From Verrucomicrobiota bacterium (GTDB taxonomy: Bacteria > Verrucomicrobiota > Verrucomicrobiia > Opitutales > UBA953): 64,000 nt of DNA. The notes under the pieces were generated by a model, which was not told where the DNA came from, made no database searches, and was given only the letters and a program-made list of their open reading frames with translations. Below, in pieces: positions 37,954 through 46,071 of the stretch (position 1 is its first letter; every line of letters starts with the position of its first letter). Position numbers and translations under genes: made by a program. The stretch spans positions 1-64,000 of the forward strand of contig BJHS01000001.1 in assembly GCA_014193315.1 (NCBI GenBank). The letters run 5' to 3'.

Positions 37954-39045
37954 TCAACGCAGGGCGAGCTCGCGCAGGGCGAGGTCGGCGACGCGGTCGG
38001 CCCCGCCGGCGTCGCCGAGGTTCGCGACGGCCTGCTTCCAGCCGCGCCAGACCTTGGCGTCGTCGGCGAAAGCCGCGGCCACGGCCGCCTTGGCCGCGGC
38101 CGGCGTGAGCCCGTAGGCGCCGGCGCCATGCTCGACGATGAGGCGAGCGTTGCCGGCTTCCTGCCCGGGGATCACCTGCGTCACGATCATCGGCGTGCCG
38201 GCCGCGACGCACTCGTGCGTGGTCGCGCCGCCCGCCTTGCTGATGACGAGGTGGGAGGATAGCATGAGCTCCGGGATGCGGGTCGTCCAGCCAAGCACCT
38301 CGGCCTTGCCCGCCGTCGCGGCGACCACCGCTTCGCGGAAGTCGGCGTCTTTGCCAACCGTGATCGTGAGCGCGATGTCGAGCGAGGCGAGGCTGGCGGC
38401 GAGATCCACGGCGTCGCGTTTCCCCGGATTGAGCATCAGCAGCACCCGGGGTTTCTCGCCGGCGCGGGCGGAGGAGCGCGGGGCCAGTTGAGGGGAGACC
38501 GGGAAGCCGAAGGGCAGTACTTTGGCGGCCGGCACGCCCTGGCGGATCATCACGTCTGCCGTCGCCTGGTTCGGCGTGATGTACCAGTCGGAGTGCGCGC
38601 GGTGCCAGGCTCGGTTCACGGAGACCGAGTCGGTGACGACCGTGATGAGGCGGGGCCGGGCGGGGTCATCGCGCCGCCAGCGTCGGGCCATCATGTAGTT
38701 GTAGAGCGGGTAGGCCGAGATCACCATGGGCGGGCGAGTCGCATCAAGTAGCTGGTTGAGGGCCCGTTCGACGGGTCGCACGAAGGGCAGGGAGGCCCCG
38801 ACGAGCGGCAGGCGATCCAGCCCGGCGTAAAGCCAGCCCCAGAGCCGCGGGTGGCGGTTCGCGACACCGATGTACGCATCGCGCTGGCGGCGGGACTTCT
38901 CGGGCCCGTAGGCCGCGAAGAAGAGGTCGTGCATCTGGCCGGCGAGTTGACCGGCGGAGACCCGCCCCAGCGCCTCCACCACCGCGCGGGCGGCCGCGTT
39001 GTGACCCTCCCCGAAGCCGGCCGACAACACCGGGACCTCGGTCAT
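37954..39045 (-). CDS. MGDG-synthase-type glycosyltransferase (diacylglycerol/lipid glycosylation)
   Basis: 363 aa. The N-terminal MGDG_synth domain begins VLSAGFGEGHNAAARAVVEAL and ends near 180, and a GT28-type C-terminal domain follows (SHLVISKAGGATTHECVAAG, the UDP-sugar binding GGAT). The family makes mono- or diglycosyldiacylglycerol, or related glycolipids, at the inner membrane. The start overlaps the LpxH-like gene stop as ATGA. The partner genes suggest a membrane-lipid remodelling unit. The sugar and acceptor cannot be told. Confidence 0.92.
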   Translation of the reverse strand: MTEVPVLSAGFGEGHNAAARAVVEALGRVSAGQLAGQMHDLFFAAYGPEKSRRQRDAYIGVANRHPRLWGWLYAGLDRLPLVGASLPFVRPVERALNQLLDATRPPMVISAYPLYNYMMARRWRRDDPARPRLITVVTDSVSVNRAWHRAHSDWYITPNQATADVMIRQGVPAAKVLPFGFPVSPQLAPRSSARAGEKPRVLLMLNPGKRDAVDLAASLASLDIALTITVGKDADFREAVVAATAGKAEVLGWTTRIPELMLSSHLVISKAGGATTHECVAAGTPMIVTQVIPGQEAGNARLIVEHGAGAYGLTPAAAKAAVAAAFADDAKVWRGWKQAVANLGDAGGADRVADLALRELALR

Positions 39046-39905
39046 CGGGCCGGGACGAGTTCGCGGGTTTGCGCGGCGGCTTCGTGCAGGGCGCGTTGGG
39101 CGGCGATGCGGTCGCGGAGTTCGGCGCGCTCGACCACCCGGAGGGTGCCATCGGTTTCCTCCACGATCGCCGTGAGCGACTCGACCCAGTCGCCGGAGTT
39201 GAGGTAGCGGATGGTCCCGATCTGGCGATCTTCGGCCTTATGGATGTGGCCGCACATGACGCCATCGCAGCCTCGGCGCGCGGCCAAGGCCTGCAGGTGC
39301 TTCTCGAAGCTGGAGATGAAACTGACGGCCGACTTGACCTTGCCCTTGATCGCCTGCGACAGGGAGAAGTACTCCTTGCCGCGCCAGGCGCGCCACTTGT
39401 TGTAGAGCCGGTTGATATCGAGGAGAATCTGGTAGCTGATGTCGCCCAGCACCGCGAGCCAGCGCATCTTCGCCGTCACTGTGTCGAAGGCGTCCCCATG
39501 GATGCAAAGGAAGCGTCGCCCGTGCAGGTCGACGTGGATATGCTCCTCCGCGAGCTCGATGCGGTCGAGGGTGATCGGGATCAGGTGGCGGATGAAGTCG
39601 TCATGGTTGCCGCGTAGGTAGACGACCTTGGTGCCATCCTTCTCCGCCATCTTCATGATGCGGCGGAGGACGGCGGTGTGGGCGGGGGTCCAGTGGTTCT
39701 TGCGGCGGAGCGACCAGAGGTCGATGATGTCGCCGTTCAGGATCAGCTTGTCGCAGCGAATCCCGCGCAGGACGTCGAGGAGTTCGCGCGCCTGGGCATC
39801 CTTGGTCCCGAGGTGGAGGTCGGAGAGGACGAGGGTGCGGAAGTGGATCTTGGCCGGGGGCAGCGGTTCCTGCGGGGGGCCGATGAACCTCTCTTGGTCT
39901 TCCAT
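39042..39905 (-). CDS. LpxH-like metallophosphoesterase (UDP-2,3-diacylglucosamine diphosphatase-type)
   Basis: 287 aa. The two-metal calcineurin-like motifs are all visible: SDLHLG (Asp29, His31), LNGDIID, RGNHDD, a CIHGD strand and CGHIHKAE. It resembles the UDP-2,3-diacylglucosamine diphosphatase-like proteins found beside lipid genes, longer than E. coli LpxH (about 240). The inserted helix region (SYQILLDINRLYNKWRAW) is typical of the longer relatives. It heads the lipid group and is coupled to the glycosyltransferase. It may hydrolyse a sugar-nucleotide lipid or other phosphoester; the substrate is unproven. Confidence 0.85.
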   Translation of the reverse strand: MEDQERFIGPPQEPLPPAKIHFRTLVLSDLHLGTKDAQARELLDVLRGIRCDKLILNGDIIDLWSLRRKNHWTPAHTAVLRRIMKMAEKDGTKVVYLRGNHDDFIRHLIPITLDRIELAEEHIHVDLHGRRFLCIHGDAFDTVTAKMRWLAVLGDISYQILLDINRLYNKWRAWRGKEYFSLSQAIKGKVKSAVSFISSFEKHLQALAARRGCDGVMCGHIHKAEDRQIGTIRYLNSGDWVESLTAIVEETDGTLRVVERAELRDRIAAQRALHEAAAQTRELVPAR

Positions 39906-41028: not shown

Positions 41029-42117
41029 TCAGAAATCGAAGACGTGCTCGACCGTCACCTGGTCCGTCTGCATCCGGCGCAGGGTGGTGTGCAACGCGGA
41101 GACCGGGGTGGCGATGGCCCACCGGCTCCGGCCGGGCTCGGTCGGGATCGGCTGGCTGAAGAGCGCGGTCATCTCGCCCGTCGGCACCCATTGGGCGGGC
41201 CCGACGGCGCTGATGAGGATGGCGGCCCGGTTGCCCGCGATCTCCCGGAAGCCGACGCCTTGGCGCGCCGCCTCGATTGCGAGCGGCGTGAAGGGGCCGT
41301 AGCGGGGCCACTCGGCCAGGACGCTGCCGTCCGGGTAGGTCTTCTGGATCGTGACGCCGTCCAGCTTTCCCGTGGGGGCCCGGTCGAGGATGACGTAGGT
41401 GACCATCAACGGCTTGCCGTAGGCGAAGAGCGCGGCCTGCTTGTTGGCCCACCCATACACGGACTTGGTGAGCATCTCGGAGGTCAGGAAGAACCGGCGC
41501 TCGAGTTTACGGAAGGGGTGGGCACCGAACCACGGCACGTCGGACCAGAGCGTCTTGGTCTGCTTGATGAAGTCGAATTCATACCAAGGGACATAATAGA
41601 TGACATCGATGTACTCCTGGGAGAAGCGGGCGGCAAAGCGGTCTTCCTCGGTCGCGATCGTCCCGGCGCCGACGTCGGTCAGTCGCCCGATGACCTCCTC
41701 GTAGCCCGCCTTGAGGCCGAACTCGAACGTCGAACTGGTGTTGATGACCCGGATCATCGTGTTGTATTCGTCGTTCGGCGGGTAGGCTCCGGCGATCTGG
41801 TCGCCGACGGCGGCGTAACTTTCCCAGGCCTGGAAGATGTGCGTCGTGAGCGGGAACGTGGTCGCGGTCCGGGTCCGCATCGCGGTGGCGTACTCCGCCG
41901 GGCCGAAGACCAGGAACCACTCGGGGTAGGTCAGGTAGGTCTGGTCAGGCGTGCGGACGTGCTCGGCCGGGGTCAGCCCGGTGGCCGCCGGGTGGAGCCA
42001 GGCCGCGGGCACGGGCGCCCGTTCGGCCGGCCGGAAGGTCGTCGCCGGCCGCACGTAGCAGAAGCAGGCGACGGCGAGGAGGGCGGCGCCCCAGGCGCTG
42101 AAATAAAGTCGGCGCAT
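41029..42117 (-). CDS. Conserved-looking membrane-anchored hypothetical protein
   Basis: 362 aa from ATG at 42117. A hydrophobic N-terminus (about 5-21, FSAWGAALLAVACFCYV) anchors or exports it. The body is rich in aromatic motifs (YPEWFLVFGPAEYA; IIYYVPWYEFDFIKQ), an arrangement I do not recognise as a named family. There are no obvious catalytic motifs. It starts 5 nt after the methyltransferase stop, so it is the third gene of a tight unit with the methyltransferase and the DUF805-FAD oxidoreductase. It may be a third component of the same pathway (inference). Confidence 0.8.
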   Translation of the reverse strand: MRRLYFSAWGAALLAVACFCYVRPATTFRPAERAPVPAAWLHPAATGLTPAEHVRTPDQTYLTYPEWFLVFGPAEYATAMRTRTATTFPLTTHIFQAWESYAAVGDQIAGAYPPNDEYNTMIRVINTSSTFEFGLKAGYEEVIGRLTDVGAGTIATEEDRFAARFSQEYIDVIYYVPWYEFDFIKQTKTLWSDVPWFGAHPFRKLERRFFLTSEMLTKSVYGWANKQAALFAYGKPLMVTYVILDRAPTGKLDGVTIQKTYPDGSVLAEWPRYGPFTPLAIEAARQGVGFREIAGNRAAILISAVGPAQWVPTGEMTALFSQPIPTEPGRSRWAIATPVSALHTTLRRMQTDQVTVEHVFDF

Positions 42118-42122
42118 GCGCG

Positions 42123-42983
42123 TCAGTTCTTGATCAAGCGGATCAAGGCGTTGTCCGAGGGGTCGTTCGGCTGGAAGAGGGCCTTGCCCACGGGCGTGAA
42201 GCCGTGGGTCGCCAGGAGGTCCGACCAGGCTTGGATCGGGCGGAAGCCCTTGAAGTCCGCGGCGTCGACCTCCCAGGTCGCGCCGAGACCGAGGTTGAAG
42301 ACCGTGTGGACCAACGAGACAAAGGTCGCCATCTCCGGGGTGCGCACGTCGTGGTCGCGCACGATGAGCGTGCCGCCCTTGCGGAGCGTGCGGTGGATCG
42401 ATGCGAGGAAGCCCGGCAGTTGCGGAAGCGGGCAATGGTGGAAGCCGATGTAGATGGTCGCCAAGTCGAGGCTCGCGTCGGGGATGTCCGTGGCCGCGAT
42501 CGGCTGGTAGTTGTTAAGGGGGAGGAATCGCCCAAGTTTGGTCAGCTGGCCGCGCTCGAGGATGTCGCCCGGGCTGTTGGTCGGGGCGACGTCATTGATC
42601 AGGTAAATCGGGCCTTCAAAGGGGAGATGCTTGCGGAGCTCGCTGACGTAGCGGCCCGTGGAGCCGATCTCGAGGTAGCCCCGGACCGGCCCGCGTTGAC
42701 CGAGCAGTTCCAGCGTCTCCCGGGCCATCTCTTTCTTCTGGGTGCGTAACGCCGGCAACCCATAGGTCAGCACGGAGAGGAACGGCGTGACCTCGGGCAG
42801 GCGGCGCTGGACTTCGCGATAGATGGCCTCGTCGTTGTCGAGCTTGCCGCACACTTCGTGGATGAGGTGGTGGAATTTGTCTTCCGGGTAGAGGTGGAAG
42901 ACCACTTGCAGGAAGCGGTAGAAGGCGTCGCGCGATTCGGTACGGTCGAAGACGGTGTGGAATTCAGAGGCTGGTTTGGTCAT
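42123..42983 (-). CDS. Class I SAM-dependent methyltransferase
   Basis: 286 aa. The SAM-binding motif I appears as GYLEIGSTGRYVSELRKHL (about 100), with IYLINDVAPTN as the acidic strand 2 and the motif IV-like strand LDLATIYIGFHHCP. An RTLRKGGTLIVRDHD strand is typical of ubiquinone/SAM methyltransferases. The N-terminal 90 residues are a helical cap. The start overlaps the FAD oxidoreductase gene by 20 nt. The substrate is unknown; coupling to a FAD oxidase suggests a small-molecule or lipid modification step. Confidence 0.88.
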   Translation of the reverse strand: MTKPASEFHTVFDRTESRDAFYRFLQVVFHLYPEDKFHHLIHEVCGKLDNDEAIYREVQRRLPEVTPFLSVLTYGLPALRTQKKEMARETLELLGQRGPVRGYLEIGSTGRYVSELRKHLPFEGPIYLINDVAPTNSPGDILERGQLTKLGRFLPLNNYQPIAATDIPDASLDLATIYIGFHHCPLPQLPGFLASIHRTLRKGGTLIVRDHDVRTPEMATFVSLVHTVFNLGLGATWEVDAADFKGFRPIQAWSDLLATHGFTPVGKALFQPNDPSDNALIRLIKN

Positions 42984-44718
42984 GAGGGTGAGGGTAATAG
43001 GAGCTCCAGAGGACGTGCCGCAGGCGGTAGTCCGGGTCGAGTTGGCGCTTCAGAGCGAAGAGTTCGCGGGCGCGGGGGTAGGCTCGGTGGAATTGGTCCG
43101 GGGTCGCATGTGCCTGGTAGGGCAGGTAGTACGTTCCCCCCAGGGTGAGCGCGGCCTCGATCAGTTCGCGCGTCCAGACGGCGACGGCGCCGCGGGCGCT
43201 CAGGGTGGTGTCTTGTTTGTGGTAGATGACGAAGGCGAAGACCTCTTCGCGGGCCCAGGACAGGAGCGTGCCGGGGTCGGGCAGGGCGTGGCGGATCGAG
43301 ATGTTGAGGATCTTGACGTGATGGCGCGTGAGGATTTCCGTCAGCCGGTCGGCGTAAGCATCGAAATGGCGGACCGGGATGAAGTACTCCTGCAACACGT
43401 AGGTGTCGGCCTGTCGCGATTTCGGCTCCAGTTCCGCCACGTCGTAGCCGGCTTCGTAGTTGCGCCAATAAACGCGATTGCGGAAGAAGAAGACCGGGTC
43501 GAACAGGTGTTCTCGCCGCCAGTGGCCACCCGGGGTCTCCGTGTAGGCCCAGATGAAGTAGCGCATGGCCGGGTACGCGGCGTTCAAGGGCATCAGCCGC
43601 GTGGGGGTCGTCGGGGTCCGTTCGGTCTTCCGCCAGGTGACGGAGTTGACCCGGCGATAGTCCGGCGGGTACATGTCGCCGTTGTGCAGGACGGTGAGCG
43701 GGTCGTCGCGGACCTCCGTCCGGAAGTGCCGGGCGTAATCGGCGCGTGCCAGCTTCCGGTTGGTGCATTCGATGGCTGTGTTGTCGGCGAGATCCAGCTC
43801 GGCCTCGACGATGATCCCGATGGCGCCGTAGCCGCCGATCGCGGCGAAGAAAATCTCGGGGTTCTCCGTCCGGCTGGCCCGACGCACGCTGCCGTCCGCC
43901 AGCATCACCTCGATCCGGCGGACCGAAAGGACGGCCGGCCCGAAGCCGATGTAACGTCCGTGGGCGTTGACGCTCAACGCCCCGCCGACGGTGAAGTTGG
44001 CGTAGGTCTGCATGATCTTCACGCTCAGCCCGTGCGGGTCGATGTGGCGCTGGATGTCGCACCAGCGCGCCCCGGCTTGCACGCGGATCCACTTCTGCTC
44101 GGGGGAGAAAGCGGTGACCGCGTTGAGCCCGCGCAGGTCGAGGTGCAGGCTGCCCGGGCTGGCGGTCTGCCCGCCCATGCTGAACCGTCCGCCGCCGATC
44201 GAGACCGGCCCCGTAGTCTGGCTGAGGAGCGCCCGCAAGGCGGCGAGGGTGGTCGGTCGCTCGACCTTCGAGACGACGATGGGGTGCAGCCCGGTGACTT
44301 CGTTGATGATCACGCCGTCCCCGGAGGCGCAGGGTTGGCCTCCGTCATTGCGGAGATAATCCTCGGCCGCGTCCCGAGCCGGGCCGTAGGCGTTGGCTCC
44401 TGCCTGCGCGCCTCGGATGAGTAGTTGCCAGCCGAGCCAAACCAGGCCGAGCACCGGGATGACGATGACGAGCAGCCACCTGCCGGAGCGTCCCCGGTCA
44501 TGCAGGCGTTTGGTCGAGGTCGCGAAGAGGCCCCACAGGAGGATCAGGTTCAGGAACCAAGGCGGCGATGACCCCAAGGTCAGGGTCAGTCCGCGCAAGA
44601 GGAGGTAGAACGCGCTCAGCAGGAACAGCACGCCGTGGAAGTATTCCACGCGACCGATGCGACCTCGGAGCGTGAAGAGCAGGTAGGTTAGCGGAATCTG
44701 GCGACGCAGGTCAGGCAT
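42964..44718 (-). CDS. DUF805 membrane domain fused to FAD-linked oxidoreductase
   Basis: 584 aa. Residues 1-110 form a DUF805-type membrane domain: GRIGRVEYFHGV and TSTKRLHDRGRSGRW, with three to four hydrophobic helices. A short linker leads to a FAD-binding oxidoreductase of the PCMH/vanillyl-alcohol-oxidase type (about 130-584): VSIGGGRFSMGGQ for pyrophosphate binding, then VGGALSVNAHG and IGGYGAIGIIVEAEL. The C-terminus has the QYFIPV-like strand and RQLDPDYRL end seen in L-gulonolactone/D-arabinono-lactone oxidase relatives. The membrane anchor replaces the usual quinone or cytochrome docking, so electrons may go to the membrane (inference). The substrate is unknown. It heads a three-gene unit. 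Confidence 0.87.
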   Translation of the reverse strand: MPDLRRQIPLTYLLFTLRGRIGRVEYFHGVLFLLSAFYLLLRGLTLTLGSSPPWFLNLILLWGLFATSTKRLHDRGRSGRWLLVIVIPVLGLVWLGWQLLIRGAQAGANAYGPARDAAEDYLRNDGGQPCASGDGVIINEVTGLHPIVVSKVERPTTLAALRALLSQTTGPVSIGGGRFSMGGQTASPGSLHLDLRGLNAVTAFSPEQKWIRVQAGARWCDIQRHIDPHGLSVKIMQTYANFTVGGALSVNAHGRYIGFGPAVLSVRRIEVMLADGSVRRASRTENPEIFFAAIGGYGAIGIIVEAELDLADNTAIECTNRKLARADYARHFRTEVRDDPLTVLHNGDMYPPDYRRVNSVTWRKTERTPTTPTRLMPLNAAYPAMRYFIWAYTETPGGHWRREHLFDPVFFFRNRVYWRNYEAGYDVAELEPKSRQADTYVLQEYFIPVRHFDAYADRLTEILTRHHVKILNISIRHALPDPGTLLSWAREEVFAFVIYHKQDTTLSARGAVAVWTRELIEAALTLGGTYYLPYQAHATPDQFHRAYPRARELFALKRQLDPDYRLRHVLWSSYYPHPHDQTSL

Positions 44719-45027
44719 GGACTTCGGGGTGGGGCGGGCCCCCTACGGGGGTGCAGGGAATGATAGGGCAGGCTCATCGGTCAACACGCTTAATCGACGG
44801 CTAGTTTCGTCGCCTGCCCGGTCGGGCAACCCGTTGCCTCCGACCGGCTGAGACGAACTGATGGTGCCCGTGCGAATCTGGCCGGATTATACCTGCTATT
44901 CGCCCGAAGGGTTTATCGATAAAAGTGATGGGGCTTATCGGTCTGATCGATGAGGTGTCGGCGGGCGGACGGCCTCGGGCTTGCCTGCGACGGACGCCTG
45001 GCCATGGTCGAGCAATCACCCTTCGCC
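44719..45027. other. 309-nt divergent intergenic region with a strong hairpin and a palindrome
   Basis: No gene is supported. A near-perfect 13-bp hairpin lies at 44818-44847 (CCGGTCGG-GCAAC and GTTGC-CT-CCGACCGG, 2-nt loop). A perfect 12-nt AT-rich palindrome, TTTATCGATAAA, lies at 44912-44923. Both stand between the minus-strand FAD gene and the plus-strand propeller gene and are candidate regulatory sites. I see no clear promoter. Confidence 0.5.
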
Positions 45028-46071
45028 ATGCGCCTTCTTGTTTGTTTGTGTTGTCTCGCCGCCTTCGCCGAAGACAAGTCGCCGGTCCTCGGGCAGGGCG
45101 ACCTGCGCTACACGGTCGACCTGCGGTGGGCCCAGGCCGACCCCGCAGTCGCCCCGGTGGTCAACGCGCACGCGCTGGCCGAAGGGAAGGATGGCCGCAT
45201 CTACCTGGTGACGGACCACCCGAAGAACGATTTCATCATCTTTGAAAAGGATGGTCGCTACGTTCGCTCAATCAGCGCCGGGCTGGGCGGCGGGCATGGC
45301 CTGGTCATTTTTGAAAAGGACGGCGTGGAGTATCTCGTGCACGTCGACTCCGGTTGGCACATGGCGGCCGAAGGCTGGAATCCCTCCGCCGTCGAGGGGC
45401 GCATCACCTTGCTGACCACCGACGGTCGGGTCATCCGTAAGTTTCCGACGCCGAAGGAACTCGGCTTGAGCGACGGTAAATTCATGCCCTGCGCCGTCGC
45501 CTGGACCCCCGCCGGCACGTTGCTCGTCGCCGATGGTTACGGTTCGAACTTCATTTACGAGTTCACGCTGGAAGGGAAACTGCTCAAGAAGTGGGGTGGG
45601 CCCACCCCGGACGCGGCTAATCTGAGCAACGCCCACGGTATCTCGATCGACCCGGTCGATCCGCGTGGCCCGCTGGTCTGGGTGCCTTCGCGCAGCCAGA
45701 ACCAGCTCAAGGCGTTCACCTTGGAGGGTAAGTATGTCGACACCATCGACTTGCCGGGCGCGTTCGCCGGCCAGCTTTGTTTCCGCGGCGACAAGGTTTA
45801 CACGGCCGTCTGCTGGAGCAAGGACGCCAAGGGGAAGCGCCTCGGGCAGTCGGGTTTCCTGCTCGTGCTGGATCGCGCGACGAAGAAGGTCCTTAGCGCC
45901 CCGGGCGGCAGCGAGCCGAAGTACGTGGATGGCAAGCTCCAGCCGCTCAGTCAGGCGCAGCCCGTCTTCAAGCACGGCCACGACCTCTTCGTCGACTCCG
46001 CCGGTGACATCTACCTTGGCGAATGGAACGCCGCCCGCCGCTACCCGTCGAAATTGACACGGGTCAAATAA
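45028..46071 (+). CDS. Secreted NHL-type six-bladed beta-propeller protein
   Basis: 347 aa from ATG at 45028; an ATG 24 nt upstream is possible. A signal peptide (to about 14) precedes repeated blades of the NHL pattern: VVNAHALAEGKDGRIYLVT, HGLVIFEKDGVEYLVHVD, MPCAVAWTPAGTLLVADGYG, NAHGISIDPVDPRGPLVWV, and HGHDLFVDSAGDIYLGEWN. That fits a six-bladed propeller. Related 6-bladed proteins in Verrucomicrobia and Planctomycetes bind or hydrolyse sugars or act with haem proteins; no catalytic residue is clear. It converges on the hypothetical gene at 46073 with a 1-nt gap. Confidence 0.88.
   Translation: MRLLVCLCCLAAFAEDKSPVLGQGDLRYTVDLRWAQADPAVAPVVNAHALAEGKDGRIYLVTDHPKNDFIIFEKDGRYVRSISAGLGGGHGLVIFEKDGVEYLVHVDSGWHMAAEGWNPSAVEGRITLLTTDGRVIRKFPTPKELGLSDGKFMPCAVAWTPAGTLLVADGYGSNFIYEFTLEGKLLKKWGGPTPDAANLSNAHGISIDPVDPRGPLVWVPSRSQNQLKAFTLEGKYVDTIDLPGAFAGQLCFRGDKVYTAVCWSKDAKGKRLGQSGFLLVLDRATKKVLSAPGGSEPKYVDGKLQPLSQAQPVFKHGHDLFVDSAGDIYLGEWNAARRYPSKLTRVK

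Follow-up and report, generated by a model that had tools for sequence, protein, structure and literature searches.

Evidence for a linked redox-plus-methylation gene unit that occurs in two versions and may act on a bacterial membrane lipid

A 64,000-nucleotide stretch of DNA from a Verrucomicrobiota bacterium (assembly GCA_014193315.1, contig BJHS01000001.1, positions 1 to 64,000; hereafter the window) carries on its reverse strand, at 41029-44718, three genes encoding a DUF805–flavoenzyme fusion, a methyltransferase dependent on S-adenosylmethionine (SAM), and a third protein. Comparison with related loci supports the view that the flavoenzyme, the methyltransferase, and the third gene constitute one linked redox-plus-methylation unit, and probably one pathway. 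We propose, tentatively and with less than even confidence, that the unit belongs to a membrane-lipid modification system with two interchangeable versions—an inside chain of DUF805, flavin dehydrogenase, and methyltransferase in one, and a DUF4383-like membrane subunit paired with an exported, covalently flavinylated enzyme in the other—both of which would serve a periplasm-facing third family without a clear relative of solved fold.

The first gene (42964-44718, minus strand; 584 amino acids from an ATG) holds two domains inside a single open frame: the DUF805 membrane domain (PF05656; residues ~15-113, 44380-44676 on the minus strand), scoring 53.8 bits against a Pfam cut-off of 25.7, and the flavin adenine dinucleotide (FAD)-binding domain FAD_binding_4 (PF01565; residues 149-281), scoring 71.1 bits against 26.4, followed by a C-terminal part to residue 584. 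Its overlap with the methyltransferase gene (42123-42983, minus strand; 286 amino acids) is exactly 20 nucleotides (42964-42983), as stated in an earlier note made from the DNA letters. A promoter scan of the three-gene unit found none.

The loci compared (labeled L; genomes are labeled G) are the best 80 of 102 relatives obtained from a genome-collection scan with an alignment of three third proteins, and the presence of each part was scored with profiles of all parts. A flavoenzyme is encoded in 71 of the 80 third-protein loci; 57 have it no more than 1.5 kb away and in the same orientation. Of the nine loci without one, five (L034, L043, L046, L056, and L069) run into the end of their contig less than 0.8 kb upstream. 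There are 35 loci with the methyltransferase, and in 26 of them it shares an open frame with the flavoenzyme (two of these, L045 and L052, have a methyltransferase part broken into two frames). Furthermore, the flavoenzyme and third protein form one chain in L086, and DUF805, flavoenzyme, and methyltransferase form one chain in L047 and L049. Physical coupling of the flavoenzyme and the methyltransferase is thus established by these natural fusions. The tight unit described in the earlier note is borne out by this co-travel and by the fusions, and the objection that the genes do not travel together fails.

DUF805 itself is not always fused, which was a point to be checked in the earlier note. 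The domain was found in 22 of the 80 loci, with nine fused forms and 13 separate genes just upstream, where the profile used was built from 12 loci and the window, which therefore match by construction. Pfam confirmed the four separate genes scanned (L036, L037, L040, and L044; 60.9-70.1 bits) and all four of the fused forms scanned outside the window. The fused frame of the window is 84% identical in G013, and every one of the five unit-bearing genomes in the window's genus (the window's own, G013, G596, G598, and G601) has DUF805 fused. An assembly accident was rejected as the origin of the fusion, since the fused form recurs in the latter four genomes and L035 and also beyond the phylum (L047, L049, L055, L057, and L059). 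Nor is it a local accident: the record titles of fused forms span four phyla (Verrucomicrobiota, Eremiobacterota, a Sideroxydans metagenome-assembled genome [MAG], and one Flavobacteriales MAG), the Flavobacteriales case resting on a 6.3-kb contig that may be mis-binned. MAG titles are unreliable for taxonomy; for example, L033 (CALQLO010000003.1) is titled Akkermansia muciniphila and is apparently the same as G601, of the window's genus. The three-gene order recurs in other phyla, and records of cultured Lysobacter, Duganella, and Dyella carry the system. The L061 and L063 flavoenzymes are nearly identical (end branches of 0.007 and 0.011) under MAG titles of two phyla of the candidate phyla radiation, which suggests recent transfer or mis-binning.

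Co-occurrence in whole genomes gave the same picture. Of the 149 genomes in the family to which the Lysobacter locus L040 belongs, exactly five matched the methyltransferase profile, and those same five matched the third-protein profile; among the 55 genomes of the window's genus, both again matched the same five, each set of five including the genome on which the search was centered. That the three genes are unrelated neighbors in a compact genome is hardly credible: the genome of the window is indeed small (2.36 Mb), and the genes overlap or nearly touch, but this explanation is contradicted by the recurrence, the fusions, and the identical co-occurrence sets.

The loci fall into two versions. 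Among the 45 loci without the methyltransferase, 42 encode a DUF4383-like membrane protein upstream of the third gene, and the remaining three (L034, L043, and L046) are cut at a contig end. The DUF4383 match is weak (23.4-29.0 bits in the five matching of six scanned, with a cut-off of 27). The protein occurs at none of the 35 methyltransferase loci, and no locus has both membrane partners. The second version has a flavoenzyme with an apparent export-type leader and a putative flavinylation histidine, and a DUF4383-like protein before the third gene, with neither methyltransferase nor DUF805; two Ruegeria plasmids show it with annotation. In a quick tree of a 72-row flavoenzyme alignment, from which the cut loci L058 and L081 of the 71 were left out and to which the two Ruegeria plasmid rows were added, the 35 methyltransferase-linked enzymes form one clade with a Shimodaira–Hasegawa-like approximate likelihood ratio support of 100; the root is for drawing only, and long branches make some other forks unsure. 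By eye, with leaders and N-termini judged from hydropathy windows and inspection only, second-version flavoenzymes have an export-type leader (twin-arginine-like or a single helix), and several flavoenzyme–methyltransferase fusions begin directly with the enzyme.

The flavin site also differs between the versions. In 36 of 37 second-version enzymes, a His stands immediately before the SMGG motif of the flavin loop, the sole exception being L092 (Pro), whose aligned N-terminus looks faulty. The residue there is never His in the 35 methyltransferase-linked enzymes, which have Phe in 26 (as does the window), Tyr in eight, and Cys in one. In aldonolactone oxidoreductases, a His beside the flavin ring is the site of covalent attachment, and enzymes of the dehydrogenase lineage carry Leu in its place (PMC11099136). 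Judged from the motif, the pre-SMGG residue would be the flavinylation position, and the exported copies likely carry covalent flavin while the methyltransferase-linked copies likely do not.

The paired membrane partners could be read differently, as parts of a respiratory or redox-repair module in which electrons pass to quinone via the DUF805 or DUF4383-like partner, oxidized membrane lipids or periplasmic proteins are repaired, and the methyltransferase and third protein are accessory. Each version indeed has its own membrane partner, with the two kinds never found at one locus. In addition, the DUF4383-like protein, found at the 42 genome loci and at L028 and L029, has two histidines within hydrophobic segments, one in D..LH..SA.WA and one in.(L/I/V)PH, both conserved in nine of nine aligned seeds; these could bind a cofactor. 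However, ten methyltransferase loci with readable upstream DNA lack DUF805 (seven from Campylobacterota, together with L048, L065, and L086), and a redox cofactor site has been demonstrated in neither membrane protein. We regard this module as improbable.

The flavoenzyme of the window, by sequence, is a DprE1-like member of the VAO/PCMH flavoprotein superfamily. In a single-sequence search its best match in the PDB was DprE1 (decaprenylphosphoryl-beta-D-ribose oxidase; 6.2e-19), as was that of its C-terminal 150 residues (0.0039); for the relative L085, the alignment to DprE1 spans almost the entire length. With a family profile, L-galactono-lactone dehydrogenase (GalDH) came first and DprE1 next. 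By single sequence, DprE1 is the closest characterized family of the window protein, the point that the earlier note asked to have predicted. Identity with DprE1 was rejected. The NCBIfam equivalog for DprE1 scores 88.9 bits against a cut-off of 500, and the lysine of the YTAKD stretch, an active-site residue of DprE1, aligns with Tyr400, which is invariant in the 72-row alignment. The fusion to DUF805 and, in relatives, to a methyltransferase likewise sets the present enzymes apart from DprE1.

DprE1 acts on a polyprenyl-linked sugar and works with the DprE2 reductase encoded nearby. Its likeness to the window enzyme raises the alternative of an envelope-sugar pathway, which we consider rather unlikely, whereby a polyprenyl-phosphate-linked sugar would be oxidized, O-methylated, and moved by the third protein to a periplasmic envelope glycan. 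Besides the DprE1 matches, L047 has an SDR-like (short-chain dehydrogenase/reductase-like) gene after the unit, a third protein that faces the periplasm would suit a transferase role, and in an alphaproteobacterial MAG (L041:1809-10181) the unit lies among polysaccharide-like genes judged by eye, without a profile search (nucleotide-sugar dehydrogenase, epimerase, and MraY/WecA-like). The equivalog score and the invariant tyrosine argue against such a pathway, and sugar genes were noticed near the unit in that one locus only, with no systematic neighbor search made for a DprE2-type reductase or glycosyltransferases.

The second comparison, with GalDH and the aldonolactone oxidoreductases, concerns enzymes that share the flavin domain; plant GalDH also lacks the flavinylation histidine, as the methyltransferase-linked enzymes do (PMC11099136). 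In contrast to that family, the present enzymes score below its cut-offs: the sugar-1,4-lactone oxidase model TIGR01678 gave 64.1 bits against 396.8, and the ALO domain was under its cut-off or unlisted in the members scanned. The covalent-FAD histidine of sugar-1,4-lactone oxidases is replaced by Phe in the window and found in none of the 35 methyltransferase-linked enzymes, at a site matched through the motif. The present enzymes also differ in having a membrane partner and a methyltransferase, and in the gatekeeper: the column aligned with Ala113 of GalDH is Gln in 72 of 72 enzymes, not Ala or Gly. Since Ala113 already blocks or limits O2 access in GalDH (PMC11099136), the flavoenzyme is predicted to be a dehydrogenase or reductase, and not an O2-consuming oxidase. 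The catalytic Arg388/Lys456 pair of GalDH lies beyond the part of the alignment displayed.

These features bear on a reading that takes up the earlier note's quinone-linked or antioxidant small molecule, in which a lactone-type dehydrogenase would produce a small antioxidant, quinone-linked or like ascorbate, that is then methylated. The top match of the family profile and the predicted dehydrogenase-type gatekeeper would fit it, and in three loci (L055:3210-4478, L057:3093-4358, and L059:3091-4359) a same-strand gene for 422-423 amino acids, directly upstream, ends at or within 30 nucleotides of the frame for DUF805 and flavoenzyme; that of L055, which was scanned, encodes a Pyr_redox_2 pyridine-nucleotide oxidoreductase. 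Quinone is a possible electron acceptor. However, the lactone-oxidase and ALO scores speak against this idea, no lactonase or ascorbate gene was recognized by eye in the first 40 neighbor clusters (not all annotated), and the lysophospholipid-salvage neighbors described below point to a membrane-lipid substrate instead. The antioxidant, lacking direct support, is judged very unlikely.

The methyltransferase of the window matches Methyltransf_11 (PF08241) with 26.0 bits against a cut-off of 21.2, a family matched at E ≤ 0.01 by 32 of 33 family members (the alignment left out L045 and L052, which are split, and L056, whose start is missing, of the 35 loci). A parallel by description is BfaA/BfaB (TmsA/TmsB), of which BfaB is a methyltransferase of the cyclopropane-synthase (CMAS) type. 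By contrast, Pfam gives only Methyltransf_11/25/23/12 for the window enzyme, and CMAS is absent among the ten Pfam families matched by the 33 members. BfaA and BfaB are an FAD enzyme and a methyltransferase whose genes overlap by 4 bp and which work one after the other to convert oleate to 10-methyl stearate (10-methyl stearic acid) (PMC5660069). The likeness is that of an FAD oxidoreductase gene overlapping a SAM methyltransferase gene, here by 20 nucleotides; the comparison is one of description and not of sequence, and no DUF805 or third-family protein is described for BfaA/BfaB in the accessible text (PMC5660069). Similarly, in the furan fatty acid pathway a methyltransferase and redox enzymes (UfaM/UfaD/UfaO) modify phospholipid fatty acyl chains, and UfaD, as described, is set apart from the present flavoenzyme by its NAD/FAD domain, which resembles phytoene dehydrogenases and desaturases (PMC7380195).

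The third gene (41029-42117, minus strand) likely starts at ATG 42117, giving a protein of 362 amino acids. The open frame extends to 42435 from a TTG (41029-42435; 468 amino acids), and this longer form was dropped because the ATG, 5 nucleotides past the methyltransferase stop, matches the start kept in the relatives L031, L032, and L033, where the gap is 4-5 nucleotides. The structural model (predicted local distance difference test score 91.0; predicted template-modeling score 0.87) has a helix at residues 2-21, a helical domain, and a C-terminal alpha/beta part. The modeled N-terminal helix fits a signal anchor, and a periplasmic location is suggested, making plausible the earlier note's view of a secreted or anchored protein. 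Over 74 third proteins, 19 columns are invariant, including Glu66, Trp67, Glu132, Arg203, Glu206, Arg207, and His358 (left out of the alignment were L042, L048, L055, L059, L072, and L080, as broken or short profile matches, and the fused L086).

No family in Pfam or NCBIfam matched the window protein. The 74 third proteins had no credible Pfam match (scattered weak hits, best E 0.0047) and a single weak NCBIfam match in one member (E 0.0025), PADLOC gave no named family, and a sequence search of the PDB gave one match at E 1.7. Foldseek searches with the whole model and with the helical domain alone found no match at E ≤ 0.001, and a search of a viral fold library likewise found none. With VIA-align, the whole model gave a partial match (best Z 6.8 over 73 residues), and for the helical part (residues 50-236) PhoU-like bundles came top (Z 8.5, root-mean-square deviation 5.7, 172 aligned), which is below the level that the tool treats as meaningful for bundles and may, by its own warning, reflect no more than a widespread arrangement. 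The model has no clear solved relative; its fold may be a known one, and a new fold is not claimed.

The neighborhood of the unit suggests a substrate. Neighboring open frames were clustered by blastp (E 1e-5, with 50% or more of the shorter covered), and lysophospholipid-salvage (LplT/Aas-type) frames were found at seven of the 35 methyltransferase loci (L045, L048, L049, L065, L066, L068, and L070) and at no locus of the second version. In L049 (Sideroxydans), the fused gene comes after Aas and LplT, each of which exceeds its NCBIfam equivalog cut-off; L066 (Sulfurovum) encodes a fused major facilitator superfamily (MFS)–acyltransferase–ligase that likewise exceeds its cut-off. LplT is an inward flippase for lysophospholipids, which Aas then re-acylates (PMC11416262). 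Furthermore, alpha/beta hydrolases are encoded next to the unit in L040 and L042 and beside the third gene in L043, where the other side is cut. On the basis of these neighbors, present at a minority of loci, and the BfaA/BfaB analogy, a membrane lipid is the preferred substrate, with a phospholipid acyl chain or some other group linked to a lipid as the likeliest target, although we hold this assignment to be only tentative, at somewhat under even confidence.

The mechanism that would follow can be outlined in five steps. DUF805, present as a fused domain, would tether the flavoenzyme to the inner membrane. The flavoenzyme, from its residues, is predicted to bind FAD without the usual covalent histidine and to work as a dehydrogenase or reductase. 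The methyltransferase, often in the same polypeptide, would then add a methyl group from SAM to the same substrate on the cytoplasmic side. The membrane-anchored third protein, with its domain presumably outside, might bind, transfer, or trim the modified lipid in the periplasm, this role being a guess. Where LplT/Aas adjoins the unit, lysophospholipid freed by the process would be flipped in and re-acylated.

Several points weigh against this proposal. The LplT/Aas frames occur at seven of 35 loci only, three of them of one genus (Sulfurovum: L066, L068, and L070), and none lies beside the unit in the window; those of L045 and L065 score under equivalog cut-offs, and the L048 member is a 113-amino-acid fragment without a Pfam hit. 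The polysaccharide-like surroundings in L041 and the Methyltransf_11-like methyltransferase, unlike the CMAS type of BfaB, point the same way. In addition, the parts of the unit, strongly linked as they are, are separable. Four loci with readable flanks (L067, L071, L082, and L095) have no flavoenzyme at the threshold used for the final count, two FAD frames in L071 having matched an early profile only (1e-16 to 1e-20). Among 387 genomes of the phylum, the methyltransferase was found in the window's genome and G341, and the third protein in the window's genome and G207: G341 encodes a flavoenzyme–methyltransferase fusion with no third gene and no DUF805 in the 13-kb stretch read, and in G207 the third gene adjoins a flavoenzyme with a single N-terminal helix, without a methyltransferase match. 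Finally, a Legionella adelaidensis plasmid (L030:7989-9050) encodes a distant third-protein relative (25% identity to that of G207), and no flavoenzyme or membrane partner was found within the 17 kb read.

On plasmids, five records carried a third-protein relative, of which three were opened and two from Tritonibacter were not, and no methyltransferase relative was found at E 1e-6; viral contigs held no relative of the third protein of the window. Literature searches on DUF805, DUF4383, DUF805/FAD, and the fusions found no description of the system, within a coverage that leaves out most subscription papers, so that its being unpublished is not shown. The enzymes of the system are of known kinds, whereas the libraries searched contained neither their combination, nor its two versions, nor the third family. 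The chemistry may be a variant of known lipid methylation. If the membrane-lipid proposal is true, a protein family that Pfam and NCBIfam do not name would gain a function, the DUF805 and DUF4383-like domains, both of unknown function, would gain a context, and redox and methyl-transfer reactions would be coupled at bacterial membranes in a new way.

Other genes near the unit were also noted. Downstream in the window, on the same strand, an LpxH-like phosphoesterase and a diglucosyl-diacylglycerol-synthase-like glycosyltransferase overlap by 4 nucleotides (37954-39905); both score under NCBIfam equivalog cut-offs, and the pair does not adjoin the unit in G013. A divergently transcribed neighbor of the first gene (44950-46071), with weak, below-cut-off beta-propeller matches, occupies the equivalent position in G013. 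A parallel flavoenzyme–methyltransferase pairing occurs in two further genomes of that order to which the window belongs (L021:158-3173 and L020:4787-7080), where a distantly related FAD enzyme adjoins a methyltransferase of a different family, LCM (PF04072), and in one case a DUF6962 membrane protein is next in line.

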